From assembly GCA_019084245.1 (NCBI GenBank), contig JAHRFE010000026.1, forward strand, positions 186,001 to 250,000: DNA of 64,000 bases. Direction: 5' to 3'. This stretch comes from Hoeflea sp. (GTDB lineage Bacteria > Pseudomonadota > Alphaproteobacteria > Rhizobiales > Rhizobiaceae). Under the pieces are notes generated by a model. That model was not told the DNA's origin and searched no databases. It saw nothing but the letters and a program-made list of their open reading frames with translations. Below, in pieces: positions 1,821 through 34,879 of this stretch (its first letter is position 1; each line of letters opens with the position of its first letter). A program made the position numbers and the translations under genes.

Positions 1821-3245
1821 TCATTCACCCAGATACTTCGCATTTTTTACATAGGCATCCGGAAAGCACTTCCGCGCTTGTTTCAGCATGCTGTCGGCAA
1901 CCGATTTGCTCTCGAATGCGCCAATGACGAAAACATTGTATCCTGATCTGAAGCCGCTGAATTTGGCAGAGAGATCGTTGAAGACGGCAAGGCCGCAACG
2001 CGCTGCGGTGGCTTGGGTTCTTTCATAATCGCTGGTTTGTCGTTCCCAGGGTTCGGTTGGAAACGACCCGACAACAACCCACCATCCTGAATCCATCAAC
2101 GTCTGGGGCTCGGTGGCGCCCAGCGTCGCGGTGGGGTTTGCACGCGTCTGATCGGCCTGCGGTTGGGGCGTCGGGACCGGTGACGGGGCCCCTCCGCTGC
2201 GGAGTCGATTGATCTTGTTCCGGGCCAACGCGGCAAAGGTGCCATTTGGCCACTGCGCCAGATAGGCCTCGAATTCCGCCGGATCCATGGAGGTGCTGAT
2301 GGTATTCCAGAACGCCAGTTCCATCGCGCCTTTGTCTGCTTCCGGCGCAGATACGCCCTGTGTGCCGATTGCGCCCGCCTCAACGCGAAGCGAGGCGGCA
2401 ATGTCGGCCAGACTCTGCTGCGTCGTGGCGTCCACGGAGGGATCCATCGAGATTTCGACCACATGTTGCACATTGGCAGCGTCGAGAATTTCCGCATGGA
2501 TGATGGTGCGGCCATCGCGCACGCCGCTGACTTCAAAACGGTTGCCCTGCATCTTCGTCGCGGTGATGCTCTCAAAGCCGCTGCCGAGCGTATCGCCGAG
2601 CAGTTCCGGCACGGTCCGCTCCAGGGCATTGTGGCCGGCATAGACCGTGATCTCGGCCGTTCCGTCCAGGCTTTCGAAGCGGCGGCCGTCGCCATTTTCC
2701 GATTCCGGCAATGCTGTCCACAGGCTTGCCGGATAGCTGATCACCGTGCCGAAACGGGCGTTCTGGTAGATGGCCAACGTTGCGTCCCTCACAGGACTGT
2801 GGAACTGCATCATGTGACCCTCGAGCCAGTCAAATTCATCCGGTGCGGCCGGGCTGACCGGCGCCACCAGTTCGCCCATGCCTGCAGCCGGCTGCCGATC
2901 AGGCTCGATTGGCACATCTCCGGCCTCATCCGCATAACCACCCGGTGACGCAGCGCCGTCAGGCAGACCAGGCAGGATGTAATTGCTGTGCGCCCAGCCG
3001 ATGCGCCCGTCCTGGGTTTCAATGTAAAGCCAGTCGCCATCCGCATCCAGAACCTCGACAATCGTTCCGGCTCCCATGCGGCTGATCTCACGCGATTTCG
3101 AGGACGAGTACTGGCGCAGCGTCAGATAGCTGTCTCCGCTGGGATTGAGATTGCCGACATAATCGGCCGAGGCCGGCATCGCCGCACCAAAGAAGGCGAA
3201 CAAGACGATGGGCGCGACGCGCTTCAAACCTAAGGACCGTTTCAT
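1821..3245 (-). CDS. Secreted SH3b and SPOR-like domain protein
   Basis: Third gene of the left-hand secreted-protein operon; function unknown. The ATG at 3245 (MKRSLGLKRV) is preferred over an in-frame start at 3260 because GGGAGG lies just upstream. Residues 1-27 form a signal peptide ending ASA. Residues ~29-92 are a bacterial SH3 domain (LTLRQYSSSKSREISRM ... GWAHSNYILPG). A central domain at ~150-290 is seen in secreted rhizobial proteins but I cannot name it. Around residues 305-350 is a motif of the type FWNTI ... FEAYLAQWPNGTFAALA, known from caspase-associated and TPR-like proteins of alphaproteobacteria. The last ~80 residues, with two Cys, resemble a SPOR fold. SH3b plus SPOR suggests peptidoglycan contact. 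The start lies 11 nt after the stop of the upstream gene. Confidence 0.75.
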   Translation of the reverse strand: MKRSLGLKRVAPIVLFAFFGAAMPASADYVGNLNPSGDSYLTLRQYSSSKSREISRMGAGTIVEVLDADGDWLYIETQDGRIGWAHSNYILPGLPDGAASPGGYADEAGDVPIEPDRQPAAGMGELVAPVSPAAPDEFDWLEGHMMQFHSPVRDATLAIYQNARFGTVISYPASLWTALPESENGDGRRFESLDGTAEITVYAGHNALERTVPELLGDTLGSGFESITATKMQGNRFEVSGVRDGRTIIHAEILDAANVQHVVEISMDPSVDATTQQSLADIAASLRVEAGAIGTQGVSAPEADKGAMELAFWNTISTSMDPAEFEAYLAQWPNGTFAALARNKINRLRSGGAPSPVPTPQPQADQTRANPTATLGATEPQTLMDSGWWVVVGSFPTEPWERQTSDYERTQATAARCGLAVFNDLSAKFSGFRSGYNVFVIGAFESKSVADSMLKQARKCFPDAYVKNAKYLGE

Positions 3246-3256
3246 CTTCGCCTCCC

Positions 3257-3955
3257 TCAATTGCCGGTCCCTGCCGGCGGCTGGAACTGCTGCTGCATCT
3301 GTCTGAGCAGATCTTCGATCGCGGCAGGGTCGGCTGCACGTGGAGCCGGCTCAGTTGCCTCGGCCCTCACAGGCGTTGCGTTCAACCCTTCAGCCCCGGG
3401 GCCATAGGCGGTCAGAATGCCGGTTTCGCCAAACAGGGCTGTGAACGGTTTTTCGCTCAAAGGGAGAACCGAGAAAGCGGTGATCATGAGAAAGCCGCTT
3501 CGGGTGCGGATCAGCAGTAGGCGGGCGCTGACTGGCTTGTTGCCCTCCGAGACCAGATCGAGCCCGCCTTCGAAGTCAGCGCCGGCGATTTCGAAGCGGC
3601 CCGCGACCAGCTCAAACGGCGTCCGCGCCACCACCGCGGTCATCAACTGACCGGCAACGATATCCGCCGCGCGGTCGCGCATGGCCCCGATATCCGGCCA
3701 GGGATCGCCGTCAAGAAAGGTGACCGTGACGGCGATCAGCCCGGATTCCTTTGGCGCCGGATCCCAGGTTTCGGCGCGCAGATGCCAGACCTTGAGCGCG
3801 GCGTCGTCGTGCTCCTCAAGTTTCCAGCCCTGCGCCGGTGGATTGAGACCGATGCCGGACTTGCCGAGATCAAGGGCAACAGCGCCGCTGCCGGAGAAGT
3901 GAAACAACAGCAAGAGCAGCAAAAGCCCTCGCACTCCCGGATTGGACCTTGGCAT
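3257..3955 (-). CDS. Secreted protein of unknown function
   Basis: 232-residue protein and second gene of the putative operon 8925-1821. The N-terminus MPRSNPGVRGLLLLLLLFHF is a typical signal peptide, with likely cleavage near residue 27 (AVA). The body looks like one compact alpha/beta domain of about 165 residues, followed by a Pro/Ala/Glu-rich tail and a short Gln-rich end (LLRQMQQQFQPP). I recognise no catalytic motif. It lies 11 nt downstream of the giant protein gene and 11 nt upstream of the SH3b/SPOR gene, so all three are probably co-transcribed and act together in the periplasm. Only its export and its context are supported. Confidence 0.7.
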   Translation of the reverse strand: MPRSNPGVRGLLLLLLLFHFSGSGAVALDLGKSGIGLNPPAQGWKLEEHDDAALKVWHLRAETWDPAPKESGLIAVTVTFLDGDPWPDIGAMRDRAADIVAGQLMTAVVARTPFELVAGRFEIAGADFEGGLDLVSEGNKPVSARLLLIRTRSGFLMITAFSVLPLSEKPFTALFGETGILTAYGPGAEGLNATPVRAEATEPAPRAADPAAIEDLLRQMQQQFQPPAGTGN

Positions 3956-3966
3956 GCCTGTTCCTC

Positions 3967-6900
3967 CTATTGCGGGCTGGCTATCCAGCCGCCCCGATCG
4001 GACTGGTAATTGTTTCCGGCACTCCAGTCCCCGGTGAAGGCGCCGTTGGCATAGGTTCCAGACACCGTGCCGGTGATGGAAACGCGCCCATAGCGGCCGG
4101 ATGAATCGATCAGGTAGCCGCTCAGGGGAACGCTGAACCGGTTTCCGTCAACATTTCCCTGAAAGGACAAATTGATCTGGTCGCCTTCATAGATCCCGGT
4201 GATCTGGCCGTTGATCCGGCCATTGGAATATTCGATGGAGAGCCTGCTTTGCGGCGCACCCTCGACGGTCCCGGTGTATCGCGTCGATTGCGGTGTCAAG
4301 CCGGCGCCTGGCGATTGGGTTTGCGGTGCCTGTGCCGCCTGCTCAGCCGCTCGCTGCGCCTCTTCGGCCTGGCGCTGGGCATCGAACTGCGCCTGGCGCT
4401 CTTTCTCCTCGGCCTCTTCAATGAGCACGCTCACCTGCTCCAGATTGGCGATGCGGTCAGGATCGGCGCAGAGCGAGACGCTTTTGCGCAGCGCCGCCAG
4501 CCCTGCGCTCCGCTCTCCCGCCCCCAGCAGATCGCTGCCGTGACTCCAGCTTGCTTCAGCCTCTGCGTAACGCGCGCCGCCGGGCTCGCAGGCCTTGGCG
4601 GCATCCCTGATCGCTTCCTCGATCGTCATCGGCGCATCCGGCTGGGCTGCGTCTCCGGCCACGTCGGCGCCGCTTTCCTCGGAGATGCCCAGTTGCTGCT
4701 TCAGCGCTTTAAGCTGGGTCTGGCGCATTTCATCGGGGCAGTCGCCGACGCTCGTTTCCAGGAGCGCGACACCCGCGCCCACTTCGCCGCTCCCGATCAG
4801 GGCAATGCCGCGCTGCCAGGCATCCTGGGCTGAAACATATCTGTCACCGCCCGGCCGGCATGCTTCAGCGTCCTCGGGCTGCGGGACTTCGGCGCCTGCC
4901 AGCTGCTGTTTTAACGTGTCGAGTTGGGCCTGCCGTTGCGGGTCGGGACATTGGCCGAGGCTTCGCTCAAGGGCCGCCACGCCGGCTTCATCATTGCCGC
5001 CGGCCAGCAACGCGAGCCCCTGCTGCCAGTTGCTCACGGCCTCGGCATGGAGGCTGCCGCCGGGGCGGCAGTCTGCAACAGGCGATGGCGGTTGGGGGGC
5101 GGGAGCCCCTACCCCGCCAAGCTGCTGGCGCAAGGCGTCAAGCTGGGACTGCCGCGTCGGATCGGGACAGACCACAAGACTGGCCTCAAGCGCCGCAACG
5201 CCGCCCTCGGCATTGCCGCCCGAAAGCATCGACAGGCCCCTGCTCCATAGATCGACCGCCGCTGTGTAGTGCGGCGAGCCCGGCGCGCAGGTTTCCACGA
5301 CGGGAGGCTTGGCGGGCTGGGGTGGAGCTACCGGTTGGGGCGGCGCCGGCTGAGGTGGCGCTACGGGTTGGGCTGGCTTTGGCTGCGACGATGGCGACTG
5401 CGATGACGTGGCAGGCTGAACCGGGGCCGGCGGCGTTGCCTGACCGGTCGCGCCGGGCTCCGATGCAGGTGAGGGCGTACCGGGTGTGGCACCGGGCGCT
5501 GGCGTCTGGATGACAGGTTCCGGCACCGGTTGTTGGGACGGAAGCTGCCCTGGGGATGTGACGGGTTGTTCCGCTGTTGGGGCGGGCTCCCGTGCAACCG
5601 GCCCGGCGGTTTCGGCCCCCGGCGTCTGAGCCGGCGTGGCGGTTGCCGCCGGCCCGGCCTTGTCCTTTGGCGCCTGCCCCTGCGGCTGCACGCTCAGGCT
5701 GATCGAACCCGACGCGATTTCGATCCCGTCCTTGTCGGTTGCCGTCACCTTCGCCTCGATCTGCCCCGCTTCGGAACGCGAGACCGTCGGCGTCTGCGAT
5801 ATCTCGTTGGAGATCGACGTGCCGTCATTGACCGACCAGAGCCAGCGGACATCGTCCGGCGCGTCACCGCTTGCGAACTCGGCGCGTAAGTCGATTTCCT
5901 GTCCGTCGACATAGTGCCCCTCGGGCACATCCACCAGGCCGCCGCTGGCCTGGTTCCAGACTTGCGGCCGCGGCCCGCGCGACCGGGCGGTGACATTGAG
6001 ACTGCCAGCCACCAGACTGTAGCTGCTGGTGACCGAGCCAATTACGTCGCCGTAATAAGCAACATTGGCGGTGGCCGCGAGCGTTACCGGCTTGCCCGCC
6101 GCACCGGAAAAGCGGATTTCGGAGCCGTTGTCGTTGAGTTCCTCCCGGTTGGAGGTCGGCGGCTCCAGCCATCGCACCGTCCAGTATCTGGACAGAACCA
6201 TCGGGGTCGCGACGACAGTCGCCTTGATCTTCGATCCCGCCTTCGCCCCGGAAGCCGGATCGAACCTGATCGACAGGGATGGCGCCAGCACCTTGATCGT
6301 CTGCTGCTCGGTCTCGGCGATTGTCGAGCCCTGCTTGACCACCTGGGCCCAGATCTTGATGTCGCCGATACGCTCGAACGTTGCGGATGTGCGGCCATCG
6401 GTCGATGTCGTTGGCTCGAAGCTCACGCCCTCGCTGCCGTGCCAGATATATTGCAGTTCCACCATCGCCGGCTGCGGCCCGCCCCATTCCTCCTCGTCGG
6501 GGGAACCGATATAGACGCTGGCGCCACCGGTTCCAGACGGGGTGACAGCGCAACCCGTGAACGGATTGGTGCTGTTCGGATCGCAATCATCCGCCCCGTC
6601 CGACGCCAGATCCTCGCCCCGATAGGGCGTCGAGATCAGGACGGTTTCGCCGAGATAGACCTGAGCGCGCGGAATGGAGAGGCCGACGATGTTGTCGGCG
6701 CCTGGCGCCGCCGGCTCTGTCGCATCGCCGGCTCCAGCCACGGCCTTGCCTGCCTCTTCCGCTGTTCCGCCGGCCGCTTCTGCAGTTGAAGGGGCCTGCT
6801 CCGGCGTGTCTGCTGAAGCAGGCGTTTCATCGATTTCGGTTTTGGCATCGGCTGCGCCGGCAACGGCGGGGTCCACCGGCGCACCCGCATCGCCGGCATC

Positions 6901-8925
6901 ATCAGCTCCGGATTCCGAGCTTGTCTCTGTGCCTTCCACCGGGGCCACCACATCCCCCGCAGTCTCCGCGCTTTCCGCCGGGGCAGGAACATCTCCGGCA
7001 GTTTCCACCGGATCGGCGGGCAGTGCCGCCCCTGGCGTAGCGGGTGCGGTGGCCTGCTGCGCCGCAGGATCTTGCGGTTCCCGCGGGACCGGCTGCGGAC
7101 GCGCAGGCTGCGGCGCGTCGACTGCGACGGGCGGAACAGGGGCCGGAACCGGAACGGTTTGCTTGACTGCGGGATCGGGCCTGACCGGCGCCGGGGCATC
7201 GGCCGCCTCCGGCTGGTCCGCATCGGCGTCCGCCTTGCCCGCAGCATCGTCCTCCGGCGCAACCGGCTCGGCCTCTTCGCGGTCCATGTAGATCGTCGCG
7301 AACCTGCGTTGTGCCGAAAGACTCAGCGTCTTGAGCGCCGGCCTGAACCCCTCGGCCTCCACCTCGACGCTGATGGGGTGACGGGCATCGACCAGCGCCT
7401 CGATCCGGGTGAATCCGGCCACCCTTCTCATGCCGGCTCCGGCTTCGCCGAAGACAAGCGGAATGCCGTCGATCCGGACCTCAGTTACAACGGGAGAGAG
7501 CGCCCGGTCGAGCGGATAGACATCGATGGTGACGGCGACCAGATGGCGATAGCGATCCGCCAGGTTGCGCATCACCAGCCGCATGCGCGGATCATACAGG
7601 CACAACCCGCTGATTTCCGCGGGACTTGTGATCGCCGGCTGAAGCACCGTCCCGCCCGGAGCACTGACGGCGCCGGCACTGTCGAGTGCGCCGACTTCGG
7701 CGAGGACGGCCCGGAAGTTCCTGTCGGAAAACAGCGTCGCATATTCATCGCATTCGGGCTTGGCCACGACCGCCTTCGACCGGGTGACCACGCGGGCCAG
7801 CGACATGAACACCGACGCCGTGGCGCGGTCGCTGTTGGACGCAATCCCGCTTTCCCTCAGCGCCCGGAAAGGTTCGAGCAGATCGGCCTGATTGCCCGCG
7901 GTCAGATAGGCGGCGACGTCGTGGTCCTTGTCGTAGAAAAAAGTCTCGTTGCTTTCGGCATTGGTCCAGACCAGCAAGGGCTTGAGCAGGGCCTGCAGCT
8001 CGTAATTGGTATAGAAATTGATGCAGGCGCCACCCTTGATGTGCTCATCAAGGGCCTTCAGCTCCGTCGACAGAACTCCAAGCTGACCGCAGATCGAACC
8101 ATCACGCGCATCCAGGATCTTCTTGTTCAGCTCGCCGAGCGCTTCGGTGAACTGCCTGGTCGCGTCGATGTAGAAATCCAGGAGGTGGCCAAAGCCGGGG
8201 ATCGCGCTGGTGAAATCCTTCATTTTGCCAAGTACGTTGCCGATGGCATTGAGACTGCTGATCGGGGAGTCCGGGTCGACGTTGGACGGGTCGAACAGGG
8301 CGACGAAATCGAGCATGTCTCCGGCCTTGCCGATATAGGCCGATCCCTTTTCTAACCGGGCCTTGATCTTGTCGAGCTTGTCGAAAACCCCGCTGTTGCG
8401 CAGGGTCCGCTCGTAACCGCTCAACTGGTACATATAGCCGTAGAGCTTTTCCCTTCCCTGCTTGTCGACAAGCATCTTGAGAAGTGTTTCCGTATCGGGG
8501 ATGCCGATCTGGATGCCGAGCTCCGCCTCGACCTTCTTCATCTGCTCGACGAATTCCGCGCTGAAGACCTTCTTGAGCAGCTCATCGCGACCGGCGACCA
8601 GTTCACCCTCAAAAAGATCATTGATGTCCTTGATCGAAGCGTCCTGGGTGCGCCTGGTTGTGGCTTGCCGCCAGTTGGTCACAGAGCTGCGGATGGATGC
8701 GAGCTTGTCGTAGAGCTCATCAAACTTGCCCTTGACGACATCGAAGGTGCTTTTCACCTCCGAATGCATTTCCTGGTAGATTTTCTGCTCCGCCTCGTCG
8801 TCGGCGCTCGCCGCATGCGGCACCATGAATGCGAGACAGGCGGCAAACAGCAGAATGAACGCGGTTCGGCGACCTGACGCCAAGGACGCCGCCGCCGAAA
8901 CTGGTGAAACCTGCCGCAACCCCAT
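3967..8925 (-). CDS. Giant secreted multidomain protein with four Cys-paired TPR-like repeats
   Basis: About 1,650 residues; function unknown. The ATG at 8925 (MGLRQVSPVS) gives a standard signal peptide ending PHAASA; an in-frame ATG at 8988 adds 21 residues. Neither has a strong ribosome site. From the N-terminus: a helical domain (~25-390), a beta region (~465-545) reminiscent of PEGA or carboxypeptidase-regulatory folds, a ~190-residue Pro/Ala/Glu disordered linker, Ig/PKD-like beta domains (~725-1065), a second Pro-rich linker, four ~62-residue repeats (~1200-1480), a Gln/Ala-rich coiled coil and a C-terminal beta domain ending GGWIASPQ. This looks like a periplasmic or surface scaffold rather than an enzyme. 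It heads the operon with the two downstream secreted proteins. The long Pro-rich linkers are AT-poor and produce long false ORFs on the + strand. Confidence 0.8.
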   Translation of the reverse strand: MGLRQVSPVSAAASLASGRRTAFILLFAACLAFMVPHAASADDEAEQKIYQEMHSEVKSTFDVVKGKFDELYDKLASIRSSVTNWRQATTRRTQDASIKDINDLFEGELVAGRDELLKKVFSAEFVEQMKKVEAELGIQIGIPDTETLLKMLVDKQGREKLYGYMYQLSGYERTLRNSGVFDKLDKIKARLEKGSAYIGKAGDMLDFVALFDPSNVDPDSPISSLNAIGNVLGKMKDFTSAIPGFGHLLDFYIDATRQFTEALGELNKKILDARDGSICGQLGVLSTELKALDEHIKGGACINFYTNYELQALLKPLLVWTNAESNETFFYDKDHDVAAYLTAGNQADLLEPFRALRESGIASNSDRATASVFMSLARVVTRSKAVVAKPECDEYATLFSDRNFRAVLAEVGALDSAGAVSAPGGTVLQPAITSPAEISGLCLYDPRMRLVMRNLADRYRHLVAVTIDVYPLDRALSPVVTEVRIDGIPLVFGEAGAGMRRVAGFTRIEALVDARHPISVEVEAEGFRPALKTLSLSAQRRFATIYMDREEAEPVAPEDDAAGKADADADQPEAADAPAPVRPDPAVKQTVPVPAPVPPVAVDAPQPARPQPVPREPQDPAAQQATAPATPGAALPADPVETAGDVPAPAESAETAGDVVAPVEGTETSSESGADDAGDAGAPVDPAVAGAADAKTEIDETPASADTPEQAPSTAEAAGGTAEEAGKAVAGAGDATEPAAPGADNIVGLSIPRAQVYLGETVLISTPYRGEDLASDGADDCDPNSTNPFTGCAVTPSGTGGASVYIGSPDEEEWGGPQPAMVELQYIWHGSEGVSFEPTTSTDGRTSATFERIGDIKIWAQVVKQGSTIAETEQQTIKVLAPSLSIRFDPASGAKAGSKIKATVVATPMVLSRYWTVRWLEPPTSNREELNDNGSEIRFSGAAGKPVTLAATANVAYYGDVIGSVTSSYSLVAGSLNVTARSRGPRPQVWNQASGGLVDVPEGHYVDGQEIDLRAEFASGDAPDDVRWLWSVNDGTSISNEISQTPTVSRSEAGQIEAKVTATDKDGIEIASGSISLSVQPQGQAPKDKAGPAATATPAQTPGAETAGPVAREPAPTAEQPVTSPGQLPSQQPVPEPVIQTPAPGATPGTPSPASEPGATGQATPPAPVQPATSSQSPSSQPKPAQPVAPPQPAPPQPVAPPQPAKPPVVETCAPGSPHYTAAVDLWSRGLSMLSGGNAEGGVAALEASLVVCPDPTRQSQLDALRQQLGGVGAPAPQPPSPVADCRPGGSLHAEAVSNWQQGLALLAGGNDEAGVAALERSLGQCPDPQRQAQLDTLKQQLAGAEVPQPEDAEACRPGGDRYVSAQDAWQRGIALIGSGEVGAGVALLETSVGDCPDEMRQTQLKALKQQLGISEESGADVAGDAAQPDAPMTIEEAIRDAAKACEPGGARYAEAEASWSHGSDLLGAGERSAGLAALRKSVSLCADPDRIANLEQVSVLIEEAEEKERQAQFDAQRQAEEAQRAAEQAAQAPQTQSPGAGLTPQSTRYTGTVEGAPQSRLSIEYSNGRINGQITGIYEGDQINLSFQGNVDGNRFSVPLSGYLIDSSGRYGRVSITGTVSGTYANGAFTGDWSAGNNYQSDRGGWIASPQ
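4425..5295 (-). repeat. Four degenerate ~62-residue repeats inside the giant secreted protein
   Basis: Each repeat opens with C-x-PG (CAPG, CRPG, CRPG, CEPG), continues with a W-x-x-G helix pair (for example NWQQGLALLAGGNDEAGVAA) and closes with a second Cys in CPDP, CPDE or CADP, followed by an R-x-x-x-L helix such as RQAQLDTLKQQL. The spacing from first to second Cys is about 37-38 residues in all four. The helix-turn-helix pattern resembles TPR/SEL1-like units. The invariant Cys pair suggests one disulphide per repeat, as fits an exported protein. Repeats begin near 5292, 5075, 4862 and 4597; the fourth runs into a coiled coil. Confidence 0.8.
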
Positions 8926-9056: not shown

Positions 9057-9680
9057 ATGGGAAACAGAGTTGTGATGATGTCGGACCCCCTCGCCTGGAC
9101 CATCGAAGTGCCCCTGCTGTCGACACCGGTCATTGTCAGGCAACTTGCCGCCGTTGTCCTGATTCCGCTTGGCATTCTGACGCTGCTGCTGGTCGGGCTG
9201 GCATGGATCGAGGGCAGTCTGGATGATCTCGGCGCCATCCTTCGAGCAATGGTCGGCGTCCTGGCCATTCTGGCGGTCCTGATGCTGGTTGCCATCTTGC
9301 TGTTTTTCAACAACCGGATGACGGTCAGTTTTGAATTCACCGAAGACGGCGTCCGCTCCAGGGTCGTTGACCAGCGCGCGAGGGTCGGCCGGACGATGGC
9401 GATTGTTCTCGGCGTGCTGGCGCGCAGCCCCGCGGCGGCCGGCGCGGGACTTCTGGCCCAAAGCAACTCCTCGCGCTTCACCCGGTGGCATGCCATTCAA
9501 AAGCTCGAAGCAGACCCCAAACGGCATTGTATCCTGTTGAAGGGCAAAGCCCTGACCCTCGATGCGATTTTCTGCTCAGAAGACAATTTCCCGATCGTCA
9601 AGACCAGGCTTGAAGAGAAACTAAAGGCTGCATCAAAACGGAAGGTGGCAACGGTCCAAGATTCCCGGACTTCGGGCTGA
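9057..9680 (+). CDS. Two-TM membrane protein with YcxB-like C-terminal domain
   Basis: 207 residues. Two hydrophobic stretches (~residues 26-50 and 62-84) anchor a cytoplasmic domain that begins FEFTEDGVRSRV. It contains the pattern W-x-x-I-x-K (WHAIQKLEAD) and ends with a helix, as in YcxB-like proteins of unknown function. The start is uncertain: ATG at 9057, or the ATG pair at 9075/9078; no good Shine-Dalgarno precedes either. It is divergent from the giant secreted protein gene and shares its promoter region. No enzymatic motif is visible. Confidence 0.6.
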   Translation: MGNRVVMMSDPLAWTIEVPLLSTPVIVRQLAAVVLIPLGILTLLLVGLAWIEGSLDDLGAILRAMVGVLAILAVLMLVAILLFFNNRMTVSFEFTEDGVRSRVVDQRARVGRTMAIVLGVLARSPAAAGAGLLAQSNSSRFTRWHAIQKLEADPKRHCILLKGKALTLDAIFCSEDNFPIVKTRLEEKLKAASKRKVATVQDSRTSG

Positions 9681-32228: not shown

Positions 32229-33197
32229 CTACACAGCCGCCAGCAGCTTCTTTTCCCGATTGGCCTTCAGCCTGGCGAAATCGTCGCCGGCGTGGTGCGA
32301 GGAGCGGGTCAGCGGGCTTGAGGCCACCATCAGGAAGCCCTTGGTGTAGGCGATTTTCTCGTAGCTCTTGAATTCCTCGGGCGTGACGAAGCTCATCACC
32401 TCGTGGTGCTTGCGGGTCGGCTGCAGGTACTGGCCGATGGTGATGAAATCGACATCGGCGGTTCTGAGATCATCCATCAGTTGCAGCACTTCATTGCGCT
32501 CTTCACCCAGGCCCACCATGATGCCCGACTTGGTGAACATCGTCGGGTCGAGTTCCTTGACCCGCTGCAGAAGCCGCAGCGAATGGAAATAACGCGCGCC
32601 GGGGCGGACGGTGAGGTAGTTGCCGGGCACGGTCTCGAGATTGTGGTTGAAGACGTCGGGTTTCGCCGCAACCACGCGTTCGAGCGCACCGGGCTTGCGC
32701 AAAAAGTCCGGCGTCAGGATCTCGATCGTCGTCTCGGGCGAGGCTTCGCGGACGGCCCATATCACCTGTTCGAAATGCTCGGCGCCGCCGTCGGCCAGGT
32801 CGTCGCGGTCGACGGAGGTGATGACAACGTGGTTCAAGCCCATTTCGCGCACCGCCCGGGCGACATTCTCGGGCTCGTTCGGATCGAGCGCGTTGGGCAG
32901 GCCGGTAATCACGTTGCAGAAGGCGCAGGCGCGGGTGCAGATCTCGCCCATGATCATGAAGGTGGCGTGCTTCTTGTCCCAGCACTCGCCGATATTGGGG
33001 CAGCCGGCTTCCTCGCATACGGTGACCAGATTGTTGGCCTTCACGATGGCGCGGGTTTCCTGGTAGCCCTTGGAATTGGGCGCCTTGACCCGGATCCAGT
33101 CCGGCTTGCGCTTGACCTCGGTGTCCGGCCGCTTCTGCTTCTCGGGATGGCGCACGCGCTTGGGGACCGGTGCGGTGGTGTCGAGGATCGTGACCAT
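32229..33197 (-). CDS. lipA: Lipoyl synthase
   Basis: 322 residues from the ATG at 33197. Radical-SAM enzyme that inserts two sulphurs into protein-bound octanoyl groups, making the lipoyl cofactor of the PDH E2 and E1-beta proteins encoded nearby. Both clusters are visible: the auxiliary [12 protein letters not shown] pattern (C-x4-C-x5-C) and the SAM-cluster CTRACAFC (C-x3-C-x2-C). The C-terminal [13 protein letters not shown] is also standard. The start codon shares its A with the stop of darG (TGATG), so lipA is translationally coupled to a toxin-antitoxin gene. Confidence 0.97.
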
Positions 33198-34231
33198 CAG
33201 TTTATCCAACTCTCTTTTTTCAAACGATCGAAAGCTATTTCGATCTGGCGCGGCGAAAAGCGTTGCTTGCGGTCGTTCCATGCATACACTTTGGCGACAG
33301 CGTCATCGGCGCTGACCGCGCTTTCGCGCTTCACCACCCAATGAACCGTCGCTAGCAGTTCGAGACCGAACGGTGTTTCGAAACCTTCGACTAGATTGCC
33401 GACCCGATCAAAACGGGAAACGGTTTCGCGCTTGTCAGCAAGGAAAGCTTCCGCATCCTTCACCGCGCCTGGCACCAACTCGATTTGTTTGTCTGGCGCG
33501 TCGCCGCCATCGGCATATCCCGCCACAAGGTGGCCTTCGACCGCACGCAAGACGTGGCGCAGGTTCTCCGCATAGGGGCCGTAAGCTGCCTTTGCATATT
33601 GCAGGCGCAATGGTTCCCCAGCCTCCTGCATGAAGTACATAAGCTTATGGACTTCGAGTAGCGACACGAATGGGTCCATCAGTCCACCGAGATACCGGTT
33701 TATGAGCACGACGAGTGCTGCGCGTCCCGGGCTCATAGTCGGAACCTCGCGCGCCTTCGTGGCCACGGGTGCGCTGTTCGGCTCGAACACGATCACCTGA
33801 AGCTCATAGAGTCCGCGCAGGGCCTCGACTATGCGCGGGCGCACGTCGACCCAGTTGAGCCCGCCAAGGCCGCTGCCGAGCGGCGGGATCGCGATTGATC
33901 GGATGCCGCGGGTGCGGATCTCTTCGACCAGCGCTTTAAGCCCCGAGTCGATGTCTTCCATCCGGCTCTTGCCGCGCCAATGGCGCTTTGTCGGGAAGTT
34001 GATGATGAACTTCGGGTTCGTCAACGTCCGCGTCTCGAAAACAAACATCTTGCCCGGCTGCACTTCGTCGCGCCCGCAGGCGGCTTCGTAAGCCTTGAAG
34101 TTTTCCGGGAAATCGTTCTTGAACTGAAGGGCGATGCCGCGGCCCATGATGCCGACGCAGTTGACCGTATTGACGAGCGCTTCCGCGTCTGCCCCCAAGA
34201 TGTCACCTGTTTTGAATTCGATCATCGCCAT
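33197..34231 (-). CDS. darG: DarG antitoxin, macro-domain ADP-ribosylglycohydrolase
   Basis: 344 residues, the size of DarG proteins. The N-terminal macro domain has [17 protein letters not shown] followed by [12 protein letters not shown] and [12 protein letters not shown], the ADP-ribose-binding loops; the ~190-residue C-terminal domain ([10 protein letters not shown]-like stretch, [12 protein letters not shown]) is the part that binds the toxin in known DarTG pairs. It removes ADP-ribose from thymidines in DNA. It lies 6 nt downstream of darT and ends on the lipA start codon. Base composition is less GC-rich than the flanking PDH genes. Confidence 0.9.
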
Positions 34232-34237
34232 CTTCCC

Positions 34238-34879
34238 TCAATAGTACCAATCTCTTTTAATTTCGATCCTCGGTCTGTGCCTCGCACTGTGCATCGCGTC
34301 CGAAACCCTTGAGACGATCCCTTGCGAATGTACACCAATGCGCTCGACCAGATGCCAGGGTAAAGAATGCTGGACGAGAAACTCGGACTGCTTGGCTTCT
34401 TTGACGTCCGCCGGGCGAAAATCGGTTGCCGCCACAGCGTCCCAATTGATATCGCCCAGTCGATCCAGACCCGCCCGGAACTGCGTATAGACCGCACCCG
34501 CATTCGACAACGAGAAGGCCCAACGCCGTCCATTCGCCTCCGCCCATTGAACGACCTCTTGAAGATCGGCCTCAAGATGGATGATCGGCTGCTGCCCGCC
34601 CCTATAGTCAAGCTCGGGATGGTTCGCGCAATGGATCACGTATAGCATAATTGAACGTGAACAAAAATAGAACGGTACAAATTGGCCGACGGTCAGTTCG
34701 GCATGGCATGATACTGGAAGTTGCATCCGCCGCTGTTTGATGCTGCTCATACCGATAGCGGTTCCGCCTTGCCGCTGAACCATATCCGCATCCGACCATA
34801 GGAACCCGTCCGTGATGATCGAAGCAAGATTGTCCACATGAACGATATGATAGATTTTGGGTTGGGCGGGTACGGGCAT
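34238..34879 (-). CDS. darT: DarT toxin, DNA ADP-ribosyltransferase (DUF4433)
   Basis: 213 residues, full family length. It starts KIYHIVHVDNLASII (NAD-binding region), then IKQRRMQLPV, VGQFVPFYFCSRSIMLYVI, the glycohydrolase-free active region with the catalytic Glu in EAKQSEFLV, and ends IEIKRDWYY, as known DarT proteins do. It transfers ADP-ribose from NAD+ to thymidine in single-stranded DNA. The start is 4 nt after the glsB stop without a clear ribosome site, so expression may depend on coupling to glsB. The sequence has AT-rich patches (for example near 34640-34680), consistent with acquisition. Confidence 0.92.
   Translation of the reverse strand: MPVPAQPKIYHIVHVDNLASIITDGFLWSDADMVQRQGGTAIGMSSIKQRRMQLPVSCHAELTVGQFVPFYFCSRSIMLYVIHCANHPELDYRGGQQPIIHLEADLQEVVQWAEANGRRWAFSLSNAGAVYTQFRAGLDRLGDINWDAVAATDFRPADVKEAKQSEFLVQHSLPWHLVERIGVHSQGIVSRVSDAMHSARHRPRIEIKRDWYY

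Follow-up and report, generated by a model that had tools for sequence, protein, structure and literature searches.

The periplasmic TPR (tetratricopeptide repeat) protein NlpI of Escherichia coli acts as a scaffold for peptidoglycan hydrolases; it is small and is encoded without an operon of the kind described below. The Helicobacter Hcp or Sel1-like proteins (HcpB, HcpC) are exported and consist of helical repeats braced by disulphides. For the DUF4424 family, the relevant passages of a 2013 study propose a role in aiding the formation of multi-component enzyme complexes and report no clearly recurrent gene neighbours (PMC3848476), and its co-occurrence with the YARHG domain is given in part of another study (PMC3355149). 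Here we describe an operon from Hoeflea sp. (contig JAHRFE010000026.1 of assembly GCA_019084245.1, positions 186,001 to 250,000; this 64,000-nucleotide stretch is hereafter the window), whose genes A, B and C (Table 1) encode exported proteins, the first with cysteine-paired, TPR-like repeats. Our tentative reading, to which we assign a probability of about 0.4, is that these genes, with additional ones in relatives, specify an accessory, exported and non-catalytic scaffold complex that would work at peptidoglycan.

A preliminary description of the window, made from its sequence, had reported three genes 11 nucleotides apart, all with signal peptides. Both intergenic gaps (A-B and B-C) do measure 11 nucleotides, with an alternative upstream TTG start of C possible at position 3260, and A, B and C each carry a single, N-terminal hydrophobic segment, as judged by hydropathy only. 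The three-gene composition did not hold in most relatives, which have four or five genes: the order is A-B-C'-D-E at three loci of the same genus (L001-L003, in genomes G247, G258 and G248; L001 and L003 are from Hoeflea alexandrii and L002 from an alphaproteobacterial metagenome-assembled genome), A-B-C'-E at L023-L025 and A-B-C' at L026, the last four loci belonging to another family of the same order. C' is shorter than window C, holding the SH3b part only and closing in a motif of invariant residues; E is a small exported domain with no Pfam or NCBIfam family above cut-off (PDB was not searched); and D of L001-L003 belongs to DUF4424 (PF14415; E 1.6e-76 in L001). Window C is a C'-E fusion, since its C' end motif is followed first by an E-like domain and next by the SPOR-like tail. 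D was found neither in the window nor at L023-L026, the rest of the window and L026 genomes not having been searched, and comparison did not support B and E as one family.

A, B and C' are adjacent at all relative loci, so the genes did not prove unlinked. Identity to the window at L023-L025 is 38-39% for the N-terminal domain of A and about 50% for B, and at L026 34% for A and 43% for B. Flanking regions fall into five sets (window; L001 with L002, on the left side; L003; L023-L025; L026), with 111 aligned bases in common between the left flanks of L002 and L003; three window-flank proteins with matches in L026 (25-37% identity) were taken as paralogues and not as shared flanks. Ratios of non-synonymous to synonymous substitution (dN/dS) were 0.05-0.27 in 19 of the 19 pairs computed (0.18-0.27 in 5 pairs for A alone). 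The operon genes are under purifying selection, and decaying debris was rejected as an explanation because these ratios are well below 1. Among 33 A-E proteins, hydrophobic segments are confined to the first 57 residues, and none of A, B, C, D, E and the divergent membrane protein U has a recognised catalytic domain.

The preliminary description had also noted four repeats of about 62 residues in A, with cysteines at fixed spacing, in a system whose overall composition it did not recognise from any characterised one. The spacing is real: the two cysteines of every pair in window A are exactly 40 residues apart, residues 1205-1500 hold no further cysteine, and four equal consecutive-pair spacings arose in 0 of 200,000 random placements of eight cysteines. 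The figure of 62 residues stands as the length of the unit and not as a period, start-to-start distances being 73, 70 and 90 residues; mutual identity among the four repeats is 33-58%. Eight A proteins, the window included, have 60 cysteines after residue 1000; of these, 56 make up 28 pairs with a spacing of 40 and the other 4 lie beyond the last repeat. These counts are not independent, since the eight proteins make up two groups. In the structural model, the first cysteine lies five residues ahead of helix A and the second at the end of helix B, or one residue past it, in 4/4 repeats; confidence over the repeats (10-residue means of the predicted local distance difference test, pLDDT) is 59-85, and is lower between them.

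The repeat resembles a single TPR unit to which two cysteines have been added, and not a new fold. On this view it is no new repeat: profile matches are to MamA, a designed TPR, Tom20 and Tom70, and TPR_2 scores 30.8 bits in A of L026 (Pfam cut-off 27). Window A reaches no TPR model at cut-off (best TPR_9, 14.7 against 35), nor does A of L023. The conserved positions fit what we take to be the TPR consensus, and the fold-search rows for the repeat are mostly proteins that are presumably TPR proteins. The two-helix unit is common to A and to TPR proteins in general; A differs in that each unit has a single TPR together with an N-terminal extension and a third helix, in the linkers between units, and in a cysteine pair 40 residues apart that brackets the hairpin. 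In the Hcp or Sel1-like proteins the likeness is in export and in the disulphide bracing proposed for A, but the cysteine pair of A brackets a single hairpin and does not join neighbouring repeats, and the Sel1 family was not found for A in Pfam at E<=1. As in the preliminary description, we infer that each repeat would be locked by a disulphide.

Of the two domains previously ascribed to the third gene, SH3b stands above its cut-off, and is counted here for a link to peptidoglycan; SPOR (PF05036), matched over positions 3-74 of 76, reaches 17.8 bits and falls below its cut-off of 21. Residues 387-474 of C are 47.8% identical to a stretch of a Methylorubrum megaplasmid. Protein B, for which nothing was above cut-off in Pfam, NCBIfam or PDB sequences, ends in the motif I/M-x-x-LL-x-x-M-x-x-x-F, and four B tails are amphipathic (moment 0.59-0.70, calculated without a control). 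As a separate observation, residues 288-356 of C are similar to part of a Caballeronia protein bearing caspase and FGE-sulfatase domains.

Under the proposed reading, A would be the scaffold of the complex, its TPR hairpins braced by disulphides formed in the periplasm, and C, together with the SPOR-like tail in the window, would hold the complex on peptidoglycan. B and C may dock on A through the conserved short segments at their ends, candidate docking peptides placed behind variable linkers; further small domains would come from E and the optional D. The complex might then hold in place or keep in check an envelope enzyme or substrate whose gene lies elsewhere, by analogy with NlpI and its hydrolases. 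The comparison is one of analogy: NlpI is an outer-membrane lipoprotein, and A has 1652 residues and many other domains. Like the preliminary description, we infer a cell-wall-anchored assembly; the observations of that description were borne out as a whole and its interpretation in part. A more elaborate version, which we consider doubtful, is an undescribed, exported envelope machine of Alphaproteobacteria in which single TPR hairpins, each with its own disulphide, would clamp the amphipathic helix at the C-terminus of B and the motif that closes C. The scaffold of 1650 residues would thereby bring together small exported domains, DUF4424 at times among them, and an anchor on the wall in the form of SH3b, and a Rhizobium gene pair of DUF4424 and E with a peptidoglycan-binding putative metallopeptidase would be a catalytic cousin. 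The operon offers a compact, testable set of exported proteins and brings in three families that reached no Pfam entry (the A N-terminal domain, B and E), and pairing cysteines in this manner would be a simple means of stabilising TPR scaffolds outside the cytoplasm.

Of 18 genomes of the genus, 4 carry gene A, as do 4 of 20 from the second family. Sampling more widely, A was found in its own genome only of 247 in the family (single-sequence query); in its own genome, with 4 strong and 9 weak matches (E 7.9e-4 to 0.035), among 397 genomes of the order; in its own genome, with one match taken as chance, among 385 of the class; and in its own genome only among 190 of the phylum. The chance match of the class sample, in G949, spans two genes, which we take to be pgk and gap, with an internal stop; one in G694 is an ordinary TPR protein. 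B, in a sample of 347 genomes of the order, was found in the five genomes that have A and, as a weak domain match, in one more. Strong A matches are restricted to two genera among the genomes sampled; absence beyond the listed genomes is unproven because the surveys are samples. Neither the N-terminal part of A nor whole B had a match in 72,556 plasmid records, and a plasmid-borne system was dropped from consideration. A literature search for an exported TPR/SH3b operon in Rhizobiales returned nothing that matched, which says little.

Several points weigh against a peptidoglycan scaffold. The location, the complex, its disulphides and its partner are all putative; the SPOR and PKD scores are below their cut-offs, SH3b domains do not always bind peptidoglycan, and the tails of B and C' might have another docking site or a structural role. 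Model quality is low except in the repeats and A 386-552 (mean pLDDT 55.6 and 44.1), 4 of the 33 A-E proteins have no segment above the hydropathy threshold, and no E lies beside the operon at L026 (the rest of that genome was not searched). The patchy presence of A (4/18 and 4/20) argues against a core role in wall growth. Among plasmid loci encoding DUF4424, 3 of 7 (L053, L054, L055) lack an E-like neighbour, and relatives of A, B or C are absent from within 4 kb of all seven.

The same patchiness would suit a surface trait, and the size of A, its linkers and its Ig/PKD-like region are compatible with an adhesin-like protein of the cell surface or matrix, with proline-rich stalks and beta domains reaching out from the cell, that B, C and E assemble or anchor and that would serve in attachment and not within the periplasm; a gene a few places from A at L003 presumably encodes an RTX/VCBS-type protein. 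We nevertheless consider attachment unlikely: none of A, B, C, D, E and U, the proteins scanned, gave an outer-membrane translocator family, an SH3b domain is present in C, and TPR units mostly serve for interactions within the cell or the periplasm. Patchy presence with differing flanks is likewise what an accessory protective or competitive module would give, one spreading between genomes whose complex neutralises incoming wall-degrading enzymes or effectors, and the DUF4424-E pair on Rhizobium plasmids fits such spread. Genes that we take to be a type I restriction system also adjoin the operon at L001 (538-6296) and L002 (956-6285). This role is improbable in view of the restriction of strong A matches to two genera, of the 0 matches of A, B, C, D, E and U in PADLOC-DB 2.0.0 at E<=0.01, and of the lack of any toxin-like or immunity-like family above cut-off among them.

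Gene U, divergent from A in the window and at L001-L003, suggests a further arrangement, in which A, B, C and E would bind a wall or lipid ligand, possibly through the SH3b and beta domains, and signal through U. U was not found at L023-L026, and is thus not needed in general; A, B, C, D, E and U gave neither a kinase nor a regulator family above cut-off, and we hold an envelope sensor to be very improbable.

DUF4424 gains repeated neighbours here, namely B-like and E-like genes. Besides D of L001-L003, B has a weak match (G355, L043; E 1.9e-4) in the C-terminal part of an 852-residue protein whose gene is directly followed by one for DUF4424, and at 4 of 7 plasmid DUF4424 loci (L056, L057, L058, L059) the next gene combines PG_binding_1 with an E-like domain and the putative metallopeptidase DUF4344. 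These four loci are all from Rhizobium and are not independent; the seven represent 9 plasmid records, H12 and H15 being excluded as near copies of H11 and H14, judged from the listing. The adjacency of DUF4424 to B-like or E-like genes in several loci differs from the picture in the passages of the 2013 study that deal with neighbours (PMC3848476).

Along its length, A matched no characterised family. Its 1652 residues agree with the preliminary estimate of about 1,650, and the long proline-rich linkers reported there are real. All Pfam and NCBIfam rows for whole A are below cut-off and no PDB sequence matches at E<=0.1, so A was rejected as a member of a known family, with the reservation that a family absent from the result rows is not thereby excluded. 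Weak rows (E 0.01-0.3) for ETX_MTX2, PspC, Occludin and the like in these searches and those with B and E were put down to chance. Residues 42-460 have no Pfam family above cut-off, and their fold-search rows were set aside for low model confidence; cysteines 279/301 and 392/442 are kept in 8/8 A proteins. Of the Ig/PKD-like domains described earlier, a beta-rich region of that character appears in a low-confidence model, and PKD itself (PF00801) scores 20.6 bits in the window and 20.2 in L026, both below the cut-off of 23.5. The context of the signal-region cysteine fits the lipobox, as we take that motif to be, in L026 only among the 8 A proteins, and A may be lipid-attached through this residue.

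Table 1. Features of the operon and its divergent neighbour in the window (residue numbers refer to the encoded protein).
Feature	Position	Strand	Description
Gene A	3967-8925	minus	1652 residues, exported multidomain protein
A 1-41	8803-8925	minus	Export signal; Cys within hydrophobic stretch in 8/8 A proteins (read from sequences)
A 42-460	7546-8802	minus	Mostly helical N-terminal domain (largely low-confidence model)
A 461-552	7270-7545	minus	Beta domain, resembles transthyretin-like/carboxypeptidase-D domains; Ig-type rows nearly tied
A 565-765	6631-7233	minus	Ala/Pro-rich linker
A 766-1084	5674-6630	minus	Beta-rich Ig/PKD-like region (PKD below cut-off; strands from low-confidence model)
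A 1085-1212	5290-5673	minus	Pro-rich linker, 30% Pro
A repeat 1	5110-5289	minus	Cys 1213/1253
A repeat 2	4891-5070	minus	Cys 1286/1326
A repeat 3	4681-4860	minus	Cys 1356/1396
A repeat 4	4411-4590	minus	Cys 1446/1486
A 1548-1642	4000-4284	minus	C-terminal beta domain, 7 strands (model, pLDDT under 50)
Gene B	3257-3955	minus	232 residues, exported; no Pfam family above cut-off
B 213-224	3284-3319	minus	Conserved amphipathic C-terminal segment, behind variable linker
Gene C	1821-3245	minus	474 residues, exported; C' and E of relatives fused, plus tail
C 40-90	2976-3128	minus	SH3b domain, PF08239, 40.8 bits (cut-off 27)
C 139-151	2793-2831	minus	Motif with invariant D, W, H, F, H, P; ends C' in relatives; fusion junction here
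C 156-290	2376-2780	minus	E-like domain
C 386-466	1848-2090	minus	SPOR-like tail, below cut-off
Gene U	9057-9680	plus	Membrane protein, divergent from A; also in L001-L003

Upstream of the A operon at L003 (3342-7540) lie two genes, p1 and p2, for helical, probably exported proteins. Profile comparison of p1 with A is weak (alone E 0.0055, probability 6.6%; with its relative E 0.0091, probability 4.4%), as is that of p2 with the A repeat profile (E 0.037, probability 1.4%); one p1 cysteine pair aligns by eye with A. The relative of p1, 27% identical, is a 1322-residue protein at L048 (7540-11508), whose cysteine pairs 693/735, 912/953 and 1026/1068, 41-42 apart, recall the A repeats, other spacings also being present. 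Elsewhere in the window, at 33197-34879, a DarT gene (PF14487, 4.7e-65) adjoins a macro-domain gene (3e-24), and the two look like a DarTG-type toxin-antitoxin pair.
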